Both the position numbers and the translations under genes were made by a program. A stretch of DNA of 23,008 nt from a virus: IMG/VR virus record IMGVR_UViG_3300047548_000810, positions 1-23,008 of that record. One strand, 5' to 3'. Shown piece after piece: positions 2,741-23,008 of the stretch. The first letter of the stretch is position 1, and each line of letters begins with the position of its first letter. Under the pieces are notes generated by a model, which was given only the letters and a program-made list of their open reading frames with translations, did no database searches and had not been told where the DNA came from.

Positions 2741-2796
2741 AAGATGCCGAGAGTGACGCCTAAAACCTCAGAAACCCTAACCAACCTTAGATTCAT
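2680..2796 (-). pseudogene. N-terminal fragment of the DUF5675 gene in a different frame
   Basis: The ATG at 2796 has GAGG 6 bases upstream and overlaps the tail fibre stop by 20 bases, a typical late-operon junction. It opens a 38-codon frame ending at TGA 2680-2682. Its residues M-N-L-R-L-V-R-V, then T-L-G-I-L-C-V-E-G-M-P-E-F-C-T, fit the first strands of DUF5675 proteins (T-L-G-x-L-x-V-x-G-x-x-x-x-x-T-L-E). The rest of the domain continues in the 2417-2740 frame, which is reached by a -1 shift. The usual linker of roughly a dozen residues between F-C-T and C-I-P-A-G-T-Y is absent, which suggests a short internal deletion that also changed frame. The frame is too short to be an independent protein of known type. 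Confidence 0.6.
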
Positions 2797-3823
2797 ATCG
2801 TGCCTCAAGTGCTGTTACCTTTGCTGAAAGCTCCTGCACCGCAGCCACCAAATATGGCACCAGTTTGGATGAATCGACCCCCTGGTAGCGCGGATTGCCT
2901 GCGCTGTCAATTTCATCCTTTTCCCCTGTGACGGCTTGAGGAACAATATCTTGGAGCTCATGGGCAACAAAACCGATGCCATCTGATTCGTTTGCAATCC
3001 ACTTCCATTTGCGCGGTTTGATTTGTTGAATGGTAGCCAACCCATCACTTAACTCTTCTACGGACGTTTTCAGTCGGTAATCTGAGCTCGTGTTGAATGA
3101 TGTATTTGCGCCGTCGTGTGTAATCGTTCCTCTAAGTGATCCACCCTCATAAAAAGCCATCAGGACTCGTGTGCCGGCTGCTGCGCGATTATCTAAACCC
3201 AAACATGCGGCATCCTTGTCTGCTACCCGAACAACCTGCCCATGATCAGTGCCGGTGGCTTCAATATACGCTTTTGCAGTAGCGAAAAGTTGAGTGGTGG
3301 TGGTGTTCACCATTACCTGTCCAGCGCTATTAAGCCGCATCCCCTCCACTCGGCTTGGACCGTTCCCTATGTCCCACCGATGCGCTGTGCCGTCATAACG
3401 GTTACCGAACCCGGATTCGCTCCAAAAGCGCATAGCACCGTCGTAAGATGGCGCGCTAGTTGCGTCGATTCTGACCACGCCGTTGAGGTGCAGCTTTTCA
3501 GTTGGACTAGTCTGATTGATTCCAACCCGGTTGTTCACTGTGTCCAGGTAGAACCCGCTGGCTACCTGAAGCTGCCCAAGGTTTACTGCATCGCCGCTGG
3601 TAGTAGCATTACCCAAGCTAGTAATCTTGTACCCGGCCCAGTTGATGTTAGCTGTAGGGCTATTAGCGCCTGTCTTAGTAAGGCAGCTGTTGATAGCCGT
3701 AGCAAAATCGTCATCCTGAGAATCATGACGAGTCGCCAATATGCCAGTGCCAGCCGTTTTATCTCCAACCCAGCCACCGCTAGCGCTGTTCCACTTTGTA
3801 TATGTTCCACCTGAAAATGGCAT
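2777..3823 (-). CDS. Tail fibre/spike protein with C-terminal S74 intramolecular chaperone
   Basis: This 348-residue protein has three recognisable parts. Residues 1-88 resemble the anchor of podovirus tail fibres (M-P-F-S-G-x-x, W, then D-D-x-x-A-x-A-I-N-S-C-L-T, I-T-S-L-x-x-A, D-A-V-N-L-G-Q). Residues 90-240 are a beta-rich shaft with V-N-N-R-V-G-I-N-Q-T-S-P-T-E-K-L-H (97-112), usual in S74 proteins. Residues about 241-345 are a Peptidase_S74 chaperone with S-S-D-Y-R-L-K (246-252) at the expected autocleavage Ser and G-F-V-A-H-E-L-Q-D-I-V-P (284-295), ending in a coiled coil. S74 domains assist trimer folding and then cleave themselves off. The ATG at 3823 has AGGAG 5 bases upstream. The protein probably binds the host surface; the fibre is short. 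Confidence 0.9.
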   Translation of the reverse strand: MPFSGGTYTKWNSASGGWVGDKTAGTGILATRHDSQDDDFATAINSCLTKTGANSPTANINWAGYKITSLGNATTSGDAVNLGQLQVASGFYLDTVNNRVGINQTSPTEKLHLNGVVRIDATSAPSYDGAMRFWSESGFGNRYDGTAHRWDIGNGPSRVEGMRLNSAGQVMVNTTTTQLFATAKAYIEATGTDHGQVVRVADKDAACLGLDNRAAAGTRVLMAFYEGGSLRGTITHDGANTSFNTSSDYRLKTSVEELSDGLATIQQIKPRKWKWIANESDGIGFVAHELQDIVPQAVTGEKDEIDSAGNPRYQGVDSSKLVPYLVAAVQELSAKVTALEARYESKVG

Positions 3824-10024: not shown

Positions 10025-11590
10025 TTATACCTGCCCGCCAACATCAAAACGTATTTCAAACCCGTACATCTCCAACGGTGCATCCTTTACTGCCCCACCA
10101 AACCGAATGGACGCATTGTGTCCTTGGCCTTTAGCTGCGAACCGGTCATAAACGTATTCCACATCATCTGACCAAGGACTATCCCAGGGGCTATCCCAAG
10201 GCGTAAACGTTCCCGGATTCAGTGTAACAGTTGAGACTGTAGGCGATACCTTAAAATCGGTGTCAAGGCCAAGGTTAAACGTAAGGCCCTTCTGCGTGCG
10301 AACTAACGGCCTAATATCTTTGAAAGCCTTGTAGTTGCCCCGAGACCCGAAGAAGTTGTACGCCATGCGGCCTGCAAACTTGATTGAGTTGTTGAAGTTG
10401 GCTTCAGTAGATCCAGCGCTTGCTGCATCAACATAACCAGTTTCTCCTTCCCAAATCGTTCCACTAACGTTGCCATAAAACGGCTTGTTGTTAAACAGAA
10501 CGGAGCACAACATATCGCTGTCGTTGACTAGCTTAAACGTAGTCCATGCTTTGGTGTCGATTGAGTAGACAAGGAAGAATCCGCCTTCTCCACTAGTCGG
10601 GACTGTTATGTAAACCCGCCTGCCCTGTGGCCAAAAAAAGCCATGCCATTGGTGGTCAAACCCAATGGTATTAGCCCATTTGCTAATGATGGGATTAACG
10701 CGATAACTGACTGTATAGAGTGCTTGTTCTGGGTCGGATTGGAACAAAGCCGATAGTGGCACGACCCCCTGCCGGGTAATAACCCACACATCGTTATTAA
10801 CTCTGATAAAAGAACGATAGCTCATTGGGGCGCCGATAAAATAGCGTGCTACAATACCCCATGTTGTCGGGTCTCCTGCATAGGTGCCGGTGTAAAACAC
10901 AATCTCACCTTCACTGCTGCAAGCCCAAAAATACTCCTGGGTTGCTAGGTTGGCAGTATTAGAATAACTGCCAATGCCAACAAGGCGTCCGCCTCTGGTA
11001 AAGACGTAACTAAAATCAAATGCGGTGAGTGCAGGCGTGCCACCTGTTCCGGTTACTTGCAGGCCGCCGTACCATACCTTTGCTGTGCCTTGTTCAACAA
11101 AGTACAGGCGTTCCTTGTACGCGGTAACATTCACCAAAGACGCCATTGAGGTAGGGCCGGTAAAGGTCACATTGCTTACACTTGCAGCATTACCATCCCA
11201 ATAAAGAGGCGTATCAGCCCCGTTACAAAAGTAAATACGATTGTTGTACACAACCGTGTTAAACTCTGGAGAGGTGTAAAGTGTAACGCCAGGGTTTAAA
11301 GCAGTTTCGTTCTTATTAACATCCCACGCAACCAGTCTAACATTGCTAGAAGCGCCATAGGCTGCAATAAGGTATTGTGTACCGTCGCCCTTAACTAACG
11401 TGCCAAGAGTCTGAACGTTACTGCCTGCAACACCCTTCCATGATTTATACCCAAGCCTAACAGAAGGAGCGCTTGGTCCTGGGAAGATGTTTACCAGCTC
11501 CAAGGCGTACTGCTCCTCCATGCGGTCGATTGGTGTGACCACATCAAGACCGCCGTAAGGGGCGGATACTGTAAGACCTTGGAGCGACAT
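10025..11590 (-). CDS. Tail nozzle/hub protein, beta-propeller type (T7 gp12/P22 gp10-like)
   Basis: This 521-residue protein is almost all beta-strand. It opens with a short region naming a reference surface (A-P-Y-G-G-L-D-V-V-T-P-I-D-R-M) and then repeats propeller-blade-like strands: V-V-Y-N-N-R-I-Y-F-C-N-G, V-T-A-Y-K-E-R-L-Y-F-V, G-R-L-V-G-I-G, D-V-W-V-I-T-R-Q-G-V-V-P-L, V-Y-I-T-V-P and F-F-L-V-Y-S-I-D-T-K-A-W-T-T-F. Near the end the F-T-P-W-D-S-P-W-D-S-P-W-S motif is a frequent signature of this phage protein group. Such proteins form the distal tail tube of podoviruses and act as the exit gate for DNA. The gene lies two bases from each neighbour, within the tail module. AAGG precedes the ATG at 11590. 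The fold call is by strand pattern. Confidence 0.75.
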   Translation of the reverse strand: MSLQGLTVSAPYGGLDVVTPIDRMEEQYALELVNIFPGPSAPSVRLGYKSWKGVAGSNVQTLGTLVKGDGTQYLIAAYGASSNVRLVAWDVNKNETALNPGVTLYTSPEFNTVVYNNRIYFCNGADTPLYWDGNAASVSNVTFTGPTSMASLVNVTAYKERLYFVEQGTAKVWYGGLQVTGTGGTPALTAFDFSYVFTRGGRLVGIGSYSNTANLATQEYFWACSSEGEIVFYTGTYAGDPTTWGIVARYFIGAPMSYRSFIRVNNDVWVITRQGVVPLSALFQSDPEQALYTVSYRVNPIISKWANTIGFDHQWHGFFWPQGRRVYITVPTSGEGGFFLVYSIDTKAWTTFKLVNDSDMLCSVLFNNKPFYGNVSGTIWEGETGYVDAASAGSTEANFNNSIKFAGRMAYNFFGSRGNYKAFKDIRPLVRTQKGLTFNLGLDTDFKVSPTVSTVTLNPGTFTPWDSPWDSPWSDDVEYVYDRFAAKGQGHNASIRFGGAVKDAPLEMYGFEIRFDVGGQV

Positions 11591-15504: not shown

Positions 15505-15663
15505 TTACCCGATACCAATAGAATAACACATTGCAACGCTTCCGCTATTCACAAATCCATCGTAACTGTAACCGGTTCCTGCCTCTGGCTCATCTTTAAC
15601 TGCCAGGATAACAGTGCCGGAAGATTCAAACGTGGTAAAACCCTCTGGGATTGTTTCGCCCCC
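15505..15663 (-). pseudogene. Out-of-frame C-terminal part of the preceding beta-rich virion gene
   Basis: This frame ends at TAA 15505-15507 and reads G-E-T-I-P-E-G-F-T-T-F-E-S-S-G-T-V-I-L-A-V-K-D followed by G-T-G-Y-S-Y-D-G. The I-P-x-G-F-T-x-(F/L) phrase echoes the earlier half of the same protein (I-P-M-G-F-T-S-L), which supports its being the real C-terminus. The break falls at a run of five G on the minus strand (15659-15663). One extra G would join the halves exactly as S-T-G-G-E-T-I-P. Possible explanations are a true 1-base deletion, a homopolymer miscount, or a -1 slip with GGG re-pairing on GGG. The frame is open further upstream to 15723, but that part is the shadow of the main frame. 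Confidence 0.7.
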
Positions 15664-16076
15664 GTTGAATATCCAGCCGCAACGATCATGCTGTTGGTGT
15701 TCAGTCCTGTAAGCATTGCCCAAGAGCTGCCGTTGTTGACCATTGTCACAATAGTTGAGCTTGCTTGGTTTCTAGTAACAAGACACCCTACTGACAAAGC
15801 GGTAATTCCAATACTACCAGATTCACTGCCTGCTGCTGTAAGGGAAGCAATGTGGTAGTAGTTGCCGCCATTGTTGCCACTAGTAAGGCTTGTGAACCCC
15901 ATGGGTATTGAAAACGGCGTGTCTTTGGTAGCAAATACAATGACTAGATCGCCTGACTCAATGCCCGTTGGGTAGTTACCATCATTGCTGGTGCCCACGA
16001 CATTTGGGTTTGAGGTCGGACCTCCGCCGCCTGTTTTCTGTATCCCAGCAGTGCTTGTGCCAAGACCAATAAACAT
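15549..16076 (-). CDS. Beta-rich virion surface protein, apparent frameshift near its 3' end
   Basis: The main frame gives 175 residues from the ATG at 16076, which overlaps the upstream TAA as TAATG and has no clear RBS of its own, so coupling is likely. It is Gly/Ser/Thr/Asn-rich and beta-rich: S-G-D-L-V-I-V-F-A-T-K-D-T-P-F, I-P-M-G-F-T-S-L-T-S-G, V-G-C-L-V-T-R-N-Q-A and M-I-V-A-A-G-Y. After residue 137 the sequence turns Arg/Gln-rich and unlike the rest, while the natural continuation (I-P-E-G-F-T-T-F-E-S-S-G-T-V-I-L-A-V-K-D) lies in the -1 frame ending at 15505. The joined protein would be about 190 residues. It directly follows a spike-base-like gene, so a capsid-surface or spike role is plausible (inference). 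Confidence 0.7.
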   Translation of the reverse strand: MFIGLGTSTAGIQKTGGGGPTSNPNVVGTSNDGNYPTGIESGDLVIVFATKDTPFSIPMGFTSLTSGNNGGNYYHIASLTAAGSESGSIGITALSVGCLVTRNQASSTIVTMVNNGSSWAMLTGLNTNSMIVAAGYSTGAKQSQRVLPRLNLPALLSWQLKMSQRQEPVTVTMDL

Positions 16077-17265: not shown

Positions 17266-18222
17266 TTACTGGTATATTACAGCCTGAAGAGCCGGAGCCG
17301 AACAACAGAGGTTTCCTTCAACGATCATCACGGTGAAGTAAGCATCCTGATCAGCAGGGCGCACCATTTCCGGAGCCAGCGGCTTAAAGTCACGGTCACG
17401 GATGAGGTCAAGCGACCAATACTTGGTGTTCAACAATCGAATGGAGTTAGTCTCAAGCACGCTTGAACCGTATCCACCATCGAAGATGAAATCGCATCCA
17501 TCATAATTCATTGCCCGAAATCCAGCCGATGCCTTCTTTACAGGGAGGGCAATGCGCTGAATCGCGGTGAGCGAGCTATGGAGGAACTTCCAAGCAGTGC
17601 GGTCACACAGAGCCAGGTCTGGCATTTCGCTTCCCCGGGTTACCTGAGTAAGCGCATCCGTTACCTGCTCCTGTACGTTGGCAGCGGTAAGTGTTACGTT
17701 TACAGCCAGGTTGCGAGCAAAGCTGTTTGATGCGCGGTCAATCTTTCCGTAGGTACCGCTTGAAGGAGAGGTACTAACGGCTTTCTTGATTCCGTCAAAC
17801 TCCATGCCGCCTGAACCAGTACCATCGCCACGAAGCGCAGCAGATACTACGTTCTTTAACCGAGTCATTGCTGCATCCATTTTAAGGGATACAACATCAA
17901 TCAGCTGGGCCTTATCACGGTTAGCAGCCTTTTCACGTCCGCTGATGCTTACAGGCTCATAGCAGCTTTTGATGGAAAAGATAAAGGCCGTGAGGTCATC
18001 AATCGAATCCAGGTCAAATGCTGAATAGCCAGAATACCAGCCACCGACGGCGCTGTCGTTGTACATTACCGGCTTTCGCAGTTCATACCCACCGGGGACA
18101 CGGCGAACGAGTCCCTGCGACTTAAGTGCCGCTGAGAGCGGGTTGTGATGAAGAACCAGGTCTGCAATCTCGTCTGACTGGTCCCATAGGGTAGTTACCA
18201 ATGCTTCTTCTATGTTTGCCAT
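17266..18222 (-). CDS. Major capsid protein
   Basis: This 318-residue protein lies directly after the scaffold gene and before the decoration gene, the canonical capsid slot. Its N-terminal A-L-V-T-T-L-W-D-Q-S-D-E-I-A-D-L, then N-P-L-S-A-A-L, V-R-R-V-P-G-G-Y-E-L-R-K-P-V, and W-Y-S-G-Y-S-A-F-D-L, are features of a phage major capsid group expected to adopt the HK97 fold. The central part has D-A-A-M-T-R-L-K-N-V-V-S-A-A-L-R-G-D-G, and the C-terminal part D-G-C-D-F-I-F-D-G-G-Y, L-L-N-T-K-Y-W-S-L-D-L-I-R-D-R-D-F and a beta-rich end. No protease is seen nearby, and a separate scaffold is present. The ATG at 18222 has GAGGT 5 bases upstream. The capsid assignment is firm; the subfamily is not. Confidence 0.88.
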   Translation of the reverse strand: MANIEEALVTTLWDQSDEIADLVLHHNPLSAALKSQGLVRRVPGGYELRKPVMYNDSAVGGWYSGYSAFDLDSIDDLTAFIFSIKSCYEPVSISGREKAANRDKAQLIDVVSLKMDAAMTRLKNVVSAALRGDGTGSGGMEFDGIKKAVSTSPSSGTYGKIDRASNSFARNLAVNVTLTAANVQEQVTDALTQVTRGSEMPDLALCDRTAWKFLHSSLTAIQRIALPVKKASAGFRAMNYDGCDFIFDGGYGSSVLETNSIRLLNTKYWSLDLIRDRDFKPLAPEMVRPADQDAYFTVMIVEGNLCCSAPALQAVIYQ

Positions 18223-18257: not shown

Positions 18258-19271
18258 CTAATCGCCAACAAGGCGACGCTCTAGGTTTTCTTTGAATGAG
18301 AGTCCTTTAACTCTGGGAGTCCCCGTTCCCGGAGAGCCAGATATGGAACGTGCAGCAGCCTTCGCCTTTTCAGCGACCTGTTGCTGTTGTTGTACCCTTG
18401 AACCAGCGGCCATTTTTTGAACGAGGCCGGAATAGTTAGGGTTCCCGTGTATCACATAGTTGTAGGCGGTTTCCAGGATCTCTTGCTGAGAGCTGTACTT
18501 GCCAGTGGCACCAAGTGCCTGAACTATGGGGATCATATCAGATTCAATTTGTGAACCTGTTTCAGGATCCATAAACACGGGCTTGCTAGCCTTAAACGAT
18601 TGTACAAGCATTTCATTATATTGTGCAACAGCATTTTGCCGATGCTCGTCCATAGCTGATTGTAGACGCTCATCTGCTATACGTTCGGCCTCTTCCCGGG
18701 TAAGATACTGGCTAGTATCCACGGGAGTCGCCTGCATAAGCTGGCCGCCTGGAGCTTGTTGCTGAAGAAGGTCTTGGGGCGTTAATCCATAGGTTTCTAG
18801 CCATTCCTTAGCGGCGTTAATTGGGTCCGTGCTGATTGCCCGGTCCCATTCAATGGCTCTCCGTGCCACATCGTAAATATTCAAATTGCGTTTGACATAT
18901 TCAGGTTCGTAGCGCTTTACCACATCCACCAACGGATTAACAACCTTTCGAGCGTCTTCAATCTCTTGTTGACGGCGTTGGTAATCGGCTCTCGTTTCGT
19001 AGGAGCGTCGGTTGACGTACTGTTGCAGGATGTAAGCGTTTTGGGGTGTTGGGTTAAGGAAGGCGTCTCTCTCTTCCTGCCGCATATCGGCTGGCGGAAC
19101 GAGCAGCGGTTGCGGTGCCGATGTCTCCAATGTAGTAGCTGTAATCTCGTTGGTTGGCGTCTCATACTGACTTTCCACCTCCGTATCTTGTGGCATGTTG
19201 CGATTAAGAGCCTCCTTAAAAGACTCTACTGCGTTGGTTTCTTGTGTGTCTTGGGTTTCGTTATCTTGCAT
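18258..19271 (-). CDS. Scaffolding protein
   Basis: This is a 337-residue acidic, Gln/Glu-rich, mostly helical protein immediately upstream of the capsid gene, where podovirus scaffolds lie. A disordered N-terminus (residues 1-60, Glu/Thr-rich) is followed by helices with Y-V-N-R-R-S-Y-E-T-R-A-D-Y-Q-R-R, then A-R-R-A-I-E-W-D-R-A-I-S-T-D-P and A-A-K-E-W-L-E-T-Y-G-L-T-P-Q-D-L. The C-terminus, A-A-R-S-I-S-G-S-P-G-T-G-T-P-R-V then L-E-R-R-L, is a recurring end in phage scaffolds and probably the capsid-binding tail. The ATG at 19271 has GGAG 8 bases upstream and overlaps the preceding gene by 11 bases. Such proteins guide procapsid assembly and then leave or are degraded. Confidence 0.82.
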   Translation of the reverse strand: MQDNETQDTQETNAVESFKEALNRNMPQDTEVESQYETPTNEITATTLETSAPQPLLVPPADMRQEERDAFLNPTPQNAYILQQYVNRRSYETRADYQRRQQEIEDARKVVNPLVDVVKRYEPEYVKRNLNIYDVARRAIEWDRAISTDPINAAKEWLETYGLTPQDLLQQQAPGGQLMQATPVDTSQYLTREEAERIADERLQSAMDEHRQNAVAQYNEMLVQSFKASKPVFMDPETGSQIESDMIPIVQALGATGKYSSQQEILETAYNYVIHGNPNYSGLVQKMAAGSRVQQQQQVAEKAKAAARSISGSPGTGTPRVKGLSFKENLERRLVGD

Positions 19272-19578
19272 TGTGGCGCTCCAAAGTTGCTTGAATTAGT
19301 TTGTCGATGGCCTTCTTCTGTTCCCGCTGTTGCTCCTTTTCAGGGTTGTAGCCTTTTTCATAGGCATCCCCAATTTCAACCGCACCTGCGGCTTTGTAGG
19401 CTTTTCGTAAAGCGCTTTTGCTGGTGTATATCTCTTTGGAGTTGAGCGGGTTTCGCGTAGGTGGCATCTCATCTGTTGTGTAGTAGTTGCGAGCCATCTT
19501 TGTTGTATCGCGTTCTATTTCATCGATTGGTACCACCTTCTTTTTTTTGGGACACCAACCAAGCACTATTCTGGCCAT
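19261..19578 (-). CDS. Small conserved phage head-cluster protein
   Basis: This is a 105-residue basic protein. The N-terminus, R-I-V-L-G-W-C-P-K-K-K-K-V-V-P, has only a single Cys, so a zinc ribbon is unlikely. The middle has Y-T-S-K-S-A-L-R-K-A-Y-K-A-A-G-A-V-E-I-G-D-A-Y-E-K-G-Y (about 51-77), a motif block that recurs in small proteins encoded next to phage portal and scaffold genes. The C-terminus is a charged helix. The ATG at 19578 has an excellent GGAGG 7 bases upstream and follows the previous stop by one base; its end overlaps the scaffold start by 11 bases. The function is unknown; position suggests a head assembly or minor structural role. Confidence 0.75.
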   Translation of the reverse strand: MARIVLGWCPKKKKVVPIDEIERDTTKMARNYYTTDEMPPTRNPLNSKEIYTSKSALRKAYKAAGAVEIGDAYEKGYNPEKEQQREQKKAIDKLIQATLERHNAR

Positions 19579-19579
19579 T

Positions 19580-21268
19580 TTAATCCTCCATTGCTGCCAT
19601 GAGGAGCAGCGTTTTTAGCCGTTTGTTTCGTACCTGGCGCGCCTCATACGCGACCAGTGCTTGCTGTACATCGGTTTGTTGTTCTGCGGTAAAAGACAAA
19701 ATCGGAGCCTCTTCCTGGGTTTCTTCAATTACCGCAGCCGCAGCTTGAGCTTGAGCTTCTTCTTCTAGCCGTCTTTGTTCTTCAAGTTGGCGGGCGCGTA
19801 GGATTTGCGCTGCAACATTTTCCTCTTCTAACTGCTCTCTGATGCTTTGGCGGCGCTTGCGCGATTTGCCCGGCAAAACGTCACGGGTATCCGTTGACTG
19901 GCCGCTAATATCAGGCTGACGGACTACAGTATTTGGTCCAATGACGTTTAAGCTAATGATTTGAAGCATCAGCTCAACGGCGGGATTGTAAACAACAGTT
20001 GCGCTTGGGATAGCCGGTAAAGTGATGTTTACGGCACCAATGACAACCGTAGGCTCATGTATCGTAGTTGTGGCGGCAATGAGAGGCGCTGCAATATCAA
20101 CGGGTCCAGCAGTAATTTGTGGCCCGTTAATCGTTGTATCTGCTGGTATTGCATCAAGAACAATGCCAGTCCCAAGTGTAATAACCGGACCATTGACCGA
20201 CGTTGTTGCAGCTATTTCTGGCGCGCTAATGTTTACAGCGCCTGGAGCTACTGTCGGGCCATAAACGGTTGTAGTTGCTGAAATAGCATTAAGTGCTACG
20301 CTGACTGAAGTATTAAGCTGCGGCTGATAAACTGTAGTAGTGGCAGCAATGAGAGGCGCTGCAATATTAACTGCCCCGACACTAATACTAGGCTGGTGAA
20401 CCGTAGTAGTTGCTGCAATGACTGGCAGAACAATGTTAATTGGTAAAGCAGTAACAGTTGGTTCGTAAACAGTGGTAGTTGCTGCAATGTTAGACAGGCT
20501 AATGTCTAAAGGCCCGGGAGTAATGCTTGGCTGATAAACTGTGGTAGCGGCACTAATTACGTCGAGCGTGATAGACTGGGCGGAGGCGCCTTCTGGAGCA
20601 AAATAAATAGGTTGGGGATAATAAATGCTTGGGTGATCTTCGTAGGTTGGCGTACCTACAGAGGTCATGTTGCGGCCACCACTACTGAAGTCGTTACCCG
20701 AATTGCCAAAAAATCCGCCTAGCGGATAATATGTTAAAATACTTGCGGGGCGAATTGATAAAGGGTGTGCGCCGTTAGCTAGGGCGGTAATTTCACCTTG
20801 GGTTAGTTGAACCGTCCAAATGCATAATTCAGCAATATTACCATTAAAATAAACGGCTGGCGTGGTGGTTCCCCCATATCGACAACCAATGTTTGTTCTA
20901 TTTCGTGATCCGACTGTTGGTGCAGGACTGGTTGTCGTATTTATCCCCGCAGCATTTAGATAAATTGTGCGGTCTGAGTTGCTTGCAAAATAGGCAGCGC
21001 CATGCTGCCACCCAGTTGTAATAGAGTTAGTAGAGGCAGCGGTGTACAAAACACCGCCAGTATCAACAGTGGCACATTTTAACTTAGAATCAGTGTCAAT
21101 GTAAAAACTATGACGCGATTGTCCAGTTGTACTACTTTCTGACCAAATTACCTGTGCTGTTGTTGTGCTATTTGTTTTGAACCATGCACTAATAGTAAGA
21201 GGAAACGACGCACCAACAGTGGCGGTACGTTCAAGATATTGCGTTGTTCCATTAAGGTTAATGGCCAC
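19580..21268 (-). CDS. LamG-like domain protein with ten tandem repeats and C-terminal coiled coil
   Basis: The product is 562 residues from a GTG at 21268 (AGGA about 9 bases upstream). Residues 1-185 form a laminin-G/concanavalin A-like jelly roll: L-N-G-T-T-Q-Y-L-E, F-T-I-S-x-W-F style strand P-L-T-I-S-A-W-F-K-T, G-W-Q-H-G-A-A-Y-F, F-N-G-N-I-A-E-L-C-I-W and L-T-Q-G-E-I-T-A-L. Residues about 232-456 are ten copies of a 22-23-residue unit with consensus V-x-I-x-x-P-x-I-A-A-T-T-T-V-Y-x-P-x-(V/I). After a Lys/Arg stretch, residues 470-520 are a Glu/Gln/Arg-rich coiled coil. The layout resembles a fibre: ligand-binding head, repeat shaft, oligomerising end. It sits in the head cluster between portal-side genes and the scaffold, which is unusual for a tail fibre. 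A capsid-attached adhesin is the favoured but unproven role. Confidence 0.8.
   Translation of the reverse strand: MAINLNGTTQYLERTATVGASFPLTISAWFKTNSTTTAQVIWSESSTTGQSRHSFYIDTDSKLKCATVDTGGVLYTAASTNSITTGWQHGAAYFASNSDRTIYLNAAGINTTTSPAPTVGSRNRTNIGCRYGGTTTPAVYFNGNIAELCIWTVQLTQGEITALANGAHPLSIRPASILTYYPLGGFFGNSGNDFSSGGRNMTSVGTPTYEDHPSIYYPQPIYFAPEGASAQSITLDVISAATTVYQPSITPGPLDISLSNIAATTTVYEPTVTALPINIVLPVIAATTTVHQPSISVGAVNIAAPLIAATTTVYQPQLNTSVSVALNAISATTTVYGPTVAPGAVNISAPEIAATTSVNGPVITLGTGIVLDAIPADTTINGPQITAGPVDIAAPLIAATTTIHEPTVVIGAVNITLPAIPSATVVYNPAVELMLQIISLNVIGPNTVVRQPDISGQSTDTRDVLPGKSRKRRQSIREQLEEENVAAQILRARQLEEQRRLEEEAQAQAAAAVIEETQEEAPILSFTAEQQTDVQQALVAYEARQVRNKRLKTLLLMAAMED
19901..20575 (-). repeat. 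Ten tandem 66/69-bp coding repeats (22-23 residues each)
   Basis: The V-(Y/H/N)-x-P phrase falls at residues 244, 267, 290, 313, 335, 358, 380, 403, 426 and 449, so spacing is 23 residues except two gaps of 22. Most units share I-A-A-T-T-T-V before it. Most DNA copies have diverged, but a 22-base stretch is identical at 20076-20097 and 20346-20367, exactly 270 bases (four units) apart. That suggests more recent copying between units 4 and 8. Confidence 0.85.
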
Positions 21269-21779: not shown

Positions 21780-21995
21780 TTATTCTTCCCTTATGTAGCC
21801 TTGTTCAATATCAATCCGACGGCGTTCTTCATCGGTTGGCCTACGCACTACATCGTTATCAATAATCCAATAATAGCATGGAAGATCCGCAACACTTGAG
21901 ATATCGGGGTCAATCAGCCATTCAGCTAAGTCAATTTCATTAGGAGATACCGAAATGCGGTAATCCTTAGTGATACGATGCAGTACGTTAGGCAT
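21780..21995 (-). CDS. Small phage structural protein
   Basis: The product is 71 residues from the ATG at 21995, which lies 4 bases below the TAG of the upstream gene (22000-22002). The longer open frame back to 22145 was rejected because it overlaps a clear gene and its added residues look like noise. The motif D-L-P-C-Y-Y-W-I-I-D-N-D-V-V-R-R-P-T-D-E-E-R, with L-I-D-P-D-I-S upstream, matches a common small phage virion protein pattern (N-P-D-x-S, P-x-Y-W-x-x-x-G-D-x-V-x-x-M-x-x-x-E-x). No Shine-Dalgarno is clear, so it is probably translated by coupling with the preceding gene. The function is unknown. Confidence 0.65.
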   Translation of the reverse strand: MPNVLHRITKDYRISVSPNEIDLAEWLIDPDISSVADLPCYYWIIDNDVVRRPTDEERRRIDIEQGYIREE

Positions 21996-21999
21996 ACAA

Positions 22000-22431
22000 C
22001 TATATACTGAAGATTCCACTAGCCGAGAACGTGACAGTAATGTCACCGCCGTTTGGTGTAACCGAGATTCCACCACCGCCTGATTTGACATCAATGAAAC
22101 AGATAAGTGACGACGTGCCAGCAGTTCCCGTATCTTTGAAAACAATTAAAGCCTCAACACTGTTTCCCGTGACTGCCGTAAACGTGACATCAGCTGCATC
22201 AAAGGTGCCACTGGTTACCGTCTTACTTGCCAAAGTTGCAGCGGTCCCCACTAGTGCTGAAGAAGCGCTTGACCAAAACTCGTGCGCTGCGCTGTAAGTG
22301 TAAGTTCCAAGGTCAATCAGTGCAATCTTAATAGTGTCATCAATCAGGTCTACTGCGGTTCCGCTAGTCGTCCCCAGTGTTCCAGGGTTAAGAATCTTTT
22401 CTTTGAATAAAGGGTATAGTACGTTTGCCAT
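22000..22431 (-). CDS. Beta-rich phage structural protein
   Basis: This 143-residue protein opens M-A-N-V-L-Y-P-L-F-K-E-K-I-L-N. It continues with D-D-T-I-K-I-A-L-I-D-L-G-T-Y-T-Y-S-A-A-H-E-F, then V-T-S-G-T-F-D-A-A-D-V-T-F-T-A-V-T-G and E-A-L-I-V-F-K-D-T-G-T-A-G-T-S-S-L-I-C-F-I-D, and ends with V-T-P-N-G-G-D-I-T-V-T-F-S. This whole pattern is very common in phage head/tail clusters, where the protein is annotated only as structural or hypothetical. The ATG at 22431 follows the portal-like stop by 3 bases with GAGG upstream. It is likely a minor virion surface component; its exact place is unknown. Confidence 0.78.
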   Translation of the reverse strand: MANVLYPLFKEKILNPGTLGTTSGTAVDLIDDTIKIALIDLGTYTYSAAHEFWSSASSALVGTAATLASKTVTSGTFDAADVTFTAVTGNSVEALIVFKDTGTAGTSSLICFIDVKSGGGGISVTPNGGDITVTFSASGIFSI

Positions 22432-22434
22432 ATT

Positions 22435-23008
22435 TTAGTCCTCGTTAAACTCAATCATTTGTGGGTTGCCTTGTTCATCATTTACAACATTGCCGTAGCG
22501 TTTGCCGTTTTCATTGTCCTCATCATCGTAGTCGGTAATCTCAATGCCAACTGGATTGCCAATACCATCTGCGATAATCTTGCCAATACGTTTCTTAGCG
22601 CGTTTCTGGACCTGCGCTTGGATATTCTGTCCGGCCATGCTGATTTGTTCCATAGCCAACCGCACACGTTCTAGGTCTTGTTCTTGTTTAAGACGGCGTT
22701 CTTCCATGAGCTTTTCAGATTCCGATAATCGCACGCGCATACTTTCAAGCTCAAGTTTTTGGACTTCAATGATGCCGCTCATACGATTGGCCTCTGAAGC
22801 AATCATGTGCTTGTCTTTATCCGTCTGAGCTTGCGTCTGAATCTTCATGACGTCAACCTGTACGGCCTGAGCTTTAATCTGAGCTTCCTGCTGCGAGATC
22901 ATCAGCTCCTGCTCTTTCAGGTACTGCTCAAACTGCTGCTTTTGAACAGCAAGTTGTGCTTCCAACTGGTCGCGCTGCATCTTAATCTGCTGCTCTTGAA
23001 TCATTATC
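22435..23008 (-). CDS. C-terminal part of probable portal protein (5' end outside window)
   Basis: The frame stays open to the right edge, so the 189 residues from the ATG at 23004 are taken as the end of a longer protein, not a gene start; no Shine-Dalgarno can be seen in the four bases available. Residues about 1-140 are a continuous Gln/Glu/Lys-rich coiled coil (E-Q-E-L-M-I-S-Q-Q-E-A-Q-I-K-A-Q-A). This is followed by K-K-R-I-G-K-I-I, then an acidic tail with D-Y-D-D-E-D-N-E-N-G and F-N-E-D. Podovirus portals often end in a long helical barrel of this type, and this is the portal's expected place upstream of scaffold and capsid. The portal call therefore rests on context and coiled coil, with no core portal motif visible. 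Confidence 0.6.
   Translation of the reverse strand, partial: IMIQEQQIKMQRDQLEAQLAVQKQQFEQYLKEQELMISQQEAQIKAQAVQVDVMKIQTQAQTDKDKHMIASEANRMSGIIEVQKLELESMRVRLSESEKLMEERRLKQEQDLERVRLAMEQISMAGQNIQAQVQKRAKKRIGKIIADGIGNPVGIEITDYDDEDNENGKRYGNVVNDEQGNPQMIEFNED

Follow-up and report, generated by a model that had tools for sequence, protein, structure and literature searches.

A putative LamG-headed accessory adhesin encoded in an exchangeable gene cassette between the portal and scaffold genes of a phage clade

Gene order around the locus

The window analysed here is a viral contig of 23 kb (23,008 nucleotides), the structural operon of which lies on the minus strand. Its 562-aa LamG-repeat ORF is embedded among the head genes as follows, where MCP denotes the major capsid protein and 'cassette' the genes between portal and p46:

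22435-23007, minus strand: portal protein, C-terminal part (the contig starts within the gene)
22438-22596, minus strand: portal C-terminal tag, made up of a GKIIADxxGNPxxIEI-type motif in two copies; varies together with the cassette type
22000-22431, minus strand: P6, 143 aa, phrog_644; relative of Corndog gp63, Catdawg gp60 and Dylan gp60
21780-21995, minus strand: small ORF 'o75', about 71 aa; kept in L037, L039 and the Nitrosovibrio prophage L157
21272-21778, minus strand: P5, 168 aa, LamG-adjacent partner gene; C-terminal domain of a collagen-like fibre in L004, L015 and L019
19580-21268, minus strand: LamG-repeat-C-module ORF, whole, 562 aa; closing gene of the cassette
19261-19578, minus strand: p46-like gene, 105 aa; borders the cassette site on the right
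18258-19271, minus strand: scaffold-position gene (the place of Mx8 p47)
17266-18222, minus strand: MCP; phrog_9953, E 3.5e-68, and 34% identity to Mx8 p48

An earlier, sequence-only reading of this DNA had placed the ORF between portal-side and scaffold/capsid genes, and this placement is borne out: the portal C-terminus lies upstream, and the p46-like gene, the scaffold-position gene and the MCP (phrog_9953) lie downstream. The genes 3' of the MCP encode tail and internal proteins and then an S74-type tail fibre (2777-3823). Judged by an MCP with these similarities to Mx8 p48 and phrog_9953, the window phage is an Mx8-like podovirus; the homologous MCP also stands in the portal - small gene - scaffold - MCP order of the Mx8/Pr-type structural module. 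Mx8, Bradyrhizobium ppBjS10J-1 and Stenotrophomonas BUCT555 share the homologous MCP and this order (with one or more small genes), but an adhesin (LamG) cassette between portal and small gene is absent from their annotation. The predicted model of P5 bears a weak likeness to carbohydrate-binding jelly rolls (TM 0.4-0.6).

Domain anatomy of the 562-residue protein

The ORF is a single open frame with a GTG start at 21268, a stop at 19580-19582 and an AGGAA Shine-Dalgarno-like site about 9 nt 5' of the GTG. It has three parts:

20621-21268, minus strand: residues 1-216, LamG/ConA-like lectin-fold domain (Pfam, alignment with P0011, P0012 and P0016, AF2, Foldseek)
19904-20578, minus strand: residues ~231-455, ten repeats of 22-23 residues each (self-similarity; phrog_8501)
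19583-19903, minus strand: residues 456-562, C-terminal module ('C-module') with a DTxDxL motif, a basic stretch, helices and the end RNKRLKTLLLMAAMED

The N-terminal jelly roll that had been proposed from the letters is recovered as a LamG domain by profile and by model. Residues 7-160 match Pfam Laminin_G_3 (PF13385) with an E-value of 3.3e-16 (60.2 bits against a cut-off of 27.6), residues 1-180 are modelled by AF2 with a pLDDT of ~82, and Foldseek searches with the LamG model return the LamG domains of agrin/perlecan, pentraxins and CBM40 (TM to target ≤0.76); both the curated score cut-off and the jelly-roll fold place the domain in the Laminin_G_3/ConA-like group. Standalone LamG proteins of other phages align up to residue 216, which is their own end.

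The repeat count of the sequence-only reading was likewise exact: the motif recurs at ten positions (residues 244, 267, 290, 313, 335, 358, 380, 403, 426 and 449) with a spacing of 22-23, and self-similarity of the protein at offset 23 is 1.34, whereas none of 500 shuffles exceeds 0.26. Each repeat is predicted to form two short strands ~11 residues apart, in an AF2 model of low confidence (pLDDT ~48 in the shaft). Residues 302-418 match a known family, phrog_8501 ('minor tail protein'; E 1e-10).

As for the terminal oligomerising coiled coil that had been suggested, the helical character of the C-terminus stands (AF2 places helices at 468-516 and 528-560), but in most relatives this module is also found as a separate small gene. 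The existence of such standalone orthologues led us to set aside a chance coiled coil; Pfam matches to XRCC4_C, P2X_receptor and similar families fall under their cut-offs and were ignored. Misassembly of the window contig is ruled out as the source of the fusion by an independent contig (L002/L028), in which the 3' two thirds of the ORF recur with 100% identity; two diverged relatives carry the fusion as well.

We found no sequence homologue in the PDB, and no family match for the C-module. In the annotated phage collection, tblastn gave no match for the whole ORF, its LamG part, the standalone LamG protein P0011, the P5 relative P0015 or the standalone C-module; the repeat part matched Pam2 only.

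An exchangeable cassette with a constant C-module

MCP relatives were gathered from viral contigs and bacterial genomes, and the portal-p46 interval was mapped in each; the close clade comprises 50 distinct loci, mostly on metagenome contigs. The interval is filled with 2.3-6.3 kb in 40 of these loci, is empty in nine (the portal abuts p46) and holds a relic in one (L064). The fillings are diverse: a virion-structural fibre (phrog_1645) with a Tail Collar protein (Pfam Collar, E 4e-24); n177 with a protein of 1,000-1,340 residues and n224; beta-helix-like giant proteins; P6 with repeat proteins, with or without LamG; Gly-rich tip proteins (Gly_rich_2); repeat-rich fibres of ~655 aa; and, among the alternative occupants, a match to the tail fibre assembly family phrog_863. 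LamG is fused in only a few loci, namely the window, L037, L039, L090 and L105.

The C-module lies just 5' of p46 in 40/40 filled close-clade loci and in 0/9 empty ones, as a standalone gene of ~100-165 aa in many relatives and fused to repeats in others. Because it closes every filled locus while the occupants differ, the constant part of the cassette is its C-terminus and the variable part its N-terminus, in agreement with the reversed polarity that the sequence-only reading had proposed. Cassette class changes at least 20 times on a tree of p46, scaffold and MCP. Exchange is seen between L057 (collar cassette) and L059 (repeat cassette). Up to the portal 3' end the two share 96.7% identity across 3.5 kb, and from the p46 start 92-96% for most of the next 10 kb; the cassettes between are unrelated. 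L064 equals L057 minus 2,369 bp, a clean deletion that may be an assembly artefact.

The L064 junction has features of an apparent recent cassette deletion: a 49-aa C-module relic (L064 1069-1218) sits right behind the portal, the portal tag is retained, and the junction has a 5-bp overlap.

A comparable order occurs at the same place outside the close clade, in a prophage of Nitrosovibrio sp. Nv6 (L157 5925-8588; MCP 33% identical): o75-like, P5-like, LamG-like, shaft and basic coil. Its shaft is Ser/Ala/Gly-rich and of another repeat type than that of the window. Two ORFs share the LamG-like part, for which Pfam gives no significant LamG match; it is read as such from its position and sequence pattern.

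We also observed a second ConA/LamG-like protein 3' of the MCP, in relatives with and without the cassette, which marks a second variable site (L030 10392-11162; L036 12220-12993; L059 10087-10986; also L065, L071, L087 and L090).

A separate S74-type tail fibre

That the tail fibre is encoded elsewhere, as had been claimed, is confirmed by a Peptidase_S74 match (E 3.1e-11) at 2777-3823, in a gene distinct from that of the LamG-headed protein. Searching 31 records recovered an S74-type fibre in 18 (16 with the cassette, and the two cassette-less records of L036 and L055), and its N-terminal ~100 residues are best conserved; of the 13 records that gave no S74 match, four are of other phage types and nine are clade contigs whose length (6-22 kb) is probably insufficient. 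Tail fibres of the Mx8/P22 family have conserved N-termini and are encoded at the right end (PMC10386132). The 562-aa protein departs from this pattern twice: where a conventional fibre has a conserved N-terminal dock and a variable C-terminus, the reverse is seen, and the right-end place after the internal virion proteins is held by the S74 fibre. We set aside the possibility that the LamG protein is the only receptor-binding protein, given the coexisting S74-type fibre. Because a separate fibre of this type is present and some relatives lack the cassette, the latter appears, on genomic grounds, to be accessory.

Relatives outside the clade

Beyond the close clade, LamG relatives lie in tail or tail-fibre modules. 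In L003 a LamG-P5 pair is located between the genes for tail tubular A (phrog_394) and tail B (phrog_376); the pair recurs in other phages, and in L004, L015 and L019 a collagen-like fibre encoded immediately ahead of LamG has P5 as its end. The standalone LamG proteins of L003, L004, L005 and L015-L019 resemble the window protein in having a LamG domain that reaches residue 216 and an adjoining P5 relative; they differ in having neither repeat shaft nor C-module, in their tail-fibre contexts and, mostly, in being followed by a ~140-aa gene. The latter is conserved in L003, L004, L015, L016, L017 and L019, possibly encodes a fibre assembly protein, and has no counterpart in the window.

The minor tail block of Corndog-type siphophages (cluster O) contains relatives of both P6 and the repeats as neighbours, the P6 relative being directly followed by a repeat-family protein: gp63/gp64 in Corndog, gp60/gp61 in Dylan and Catdawg (phrog_644, phrog_8501). 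Dylan gp61 matches phrog_8501 with an E-value of 8e-78, and Corndog gp63 (P6 family) and gp64 (repeat family) were equated with Dylan gp60 and gp61 by size and synteny. The two Corndog proteins were detected in twice-CsCl-banded virions, with 17 and 9 peptides respectively (PMC4351075). In contrast to the window, the Corndog-type genes belong to a siphophage tail module, and the repeat protein has 133 aa, no LamG and no C-module. Pseudanabaena phage Pam2 (Pam2_64, Pam2_68) similarly encodes, in one gene block, a relative of P6 together with a long protein whose 23-aa repeats are of the same type, but it lacks LamG and C-module, and its block includes tail-type genes.

The portal C-terminal tag

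A GKIIxDExGNPxxIEI-type tag stands at the extreme C-terminus of the portal in cassette-bearing relatives and is absent from all nine cassette-less portals; the portals of distant relatives end in unrelated or loosely similar sequences. Its copy number follows cassette type: two copies accompany repeat-type cassettes in 10/11 cases, and one copy accompanies the collar, beta-helix and f543 types in 25/25. In an independent-pair test, ~6.7 of 8 pairs were concordant and none was opposite (p ~0.016). We first read this co-variation as docking evidence, a reading that was withdrawn after the breakpoint comparison of L057 and L059: the exchange breakpoints fall within the portal 3' region, so linkage of the tag-coding portal 3' end to the cassette may alone give the same co-variation. 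Portal C-termini normally point to the capsid interior. It is a speculative and, in our estimate, improbable proposal that C-module and portal tag would form a matched docking pair, that is, a portal-vertex socket taking interchangeable adhesins of reversed polarity (N-terminus out, C-terminus in).

Proposed function and alternatives

We consider it likely that this is an exchangeable adsorption cassette and that the ORF, its last gene, encodes an accessory virion adhesin. Its N-terminal LamG jelly roll would probably bind a surface glycan; the ten-repeat shaft stands between LamG and the C-module; and the C-terminal helical module, the clade's constant part, is most likely what links the adhesin to the virion or its assembly pathway. 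P6, o75 and P5 are partner genes in this cassette. Incorporation of the protein into the virion and docking by its C-terminus are parts of this proposal; the 'dock' is deduced from the constancy of the module, which might instead act as an assembly factor. As to the docking site, we lean towards portal, neck or tail over the capsid shell, because LamG, P6 and repeat relatives occur in tail contexts and the Corndog counterparts are found in virions; what points to the head is gene position.

The sequence-only reading had favoured a capsid-attached adhesin. Its adhesin or fibre-like character, distinct from the S74 fibre, holds up; attachment to the capsid is unsupported, given the tail-type relatives and slot occupants. 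As a head fibre or decoration, the protein would have its C-module on the capsid shell and LamG projecting, pre-concentrating the phage on glycan-coated surfaces as T4 Hoc and phi29 head fibres do. The gene does lie between portal and scaffold/MCP in every close relative, its conserved C-terminus adjoins head genes, and optional presence would fit Hoc and the phi29 head fibres, which are without effect on capsid stability (PMC7602432). Hoc and phi29 gp8.5 are likewise accessory adhesive virion proteins (PMC7602432), but they have other folds and a proven capsid attachment, and we saw no sequence relation to them. Moreover, outside the clade LamG relatives are found in tail modules and the repeat and P6 relatives among Corndog-type minor tail genes, and other slot occupants are of tail-collar and tail-fibre types. 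The earlier reading had held that homologues consistently located in tail modules would speak against it; this is what we find outside the clade (e.g., L003) but not within it, where they always lie beside scaffold/capsid genes. On balance, we regard a head fibre as rather unlikely. The head fibres of phage 7-7-1 were weighed as a further analogue and set aside; the paper does not name their proteins.

The same tail-fibre-type occupants and tail-module LamG relatives would also suit an ordinary tail fibre whose gene happens to come early, one of two fibres on the tail hub with normal docking. Such a fibre should resemble those of its family, which have conserved N-termini and right-end genes (PMC10386132); here the polarity is reversed, and a fibre with a conserved N-terminus already occupies the right end in these phages, so that we judge this explanation unlikely. 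Least probable is a non-virion role in which the C-module acts as a morphogenesis factor for the head or fibre genes, with LamG-repeat as an undisplayed chaperone or passenger: the C-module is indeed a separate small basic helical gene right before p46/scaffold in most relatives, but it is missing whenever the cassette is missing and hence is not needed for head assembly, and a lectin head with a repeat shaft would make little sense on an undisplayed protein.

Implications

The usual search for host-range modules of tailed phages looks to the tail end of the structural operon and to the fibre C-terminus as the variable part. If the accessory-adhesin reading is correct, a whole clade would carry a second exchangeable adhesin slot within the head gene block, with the opposite polarity, the exchange of which is visible as natural swaps and deletions between near-identical phages. 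Each part is of a familiar type; their combination, an exchangeable slot on the head side that keeps a constant C-module, appears to be new, and we found no earlier description of one in the open-licence literature. The docking site, if found, would provide a clean test of modular accessory adhesins on a podovirus head or portal vertex. A caution also follows for annotation: position alone is no basis for assigning fibre-type genes between portal and scaffold to capsid or tail.

Other observations in the window

Two further genes of the window deserve comment. At 15505-16076, a 175-aa ORF (15549-16076) is apparently frame-shifted relative to a 196-aa version in the near-identical L028 (4613-5203); its lost end is readable in another frame at 15505-15723, which may reflect a sequencing error or a broken gene. 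The gene at 10025-11590 carries the PHROG label 'amidase' (phrog_5107), as does Mx8 p52; it has no Pfam enzyme domain and sits at the position expected for tail tube B, and the label is probably wrong.
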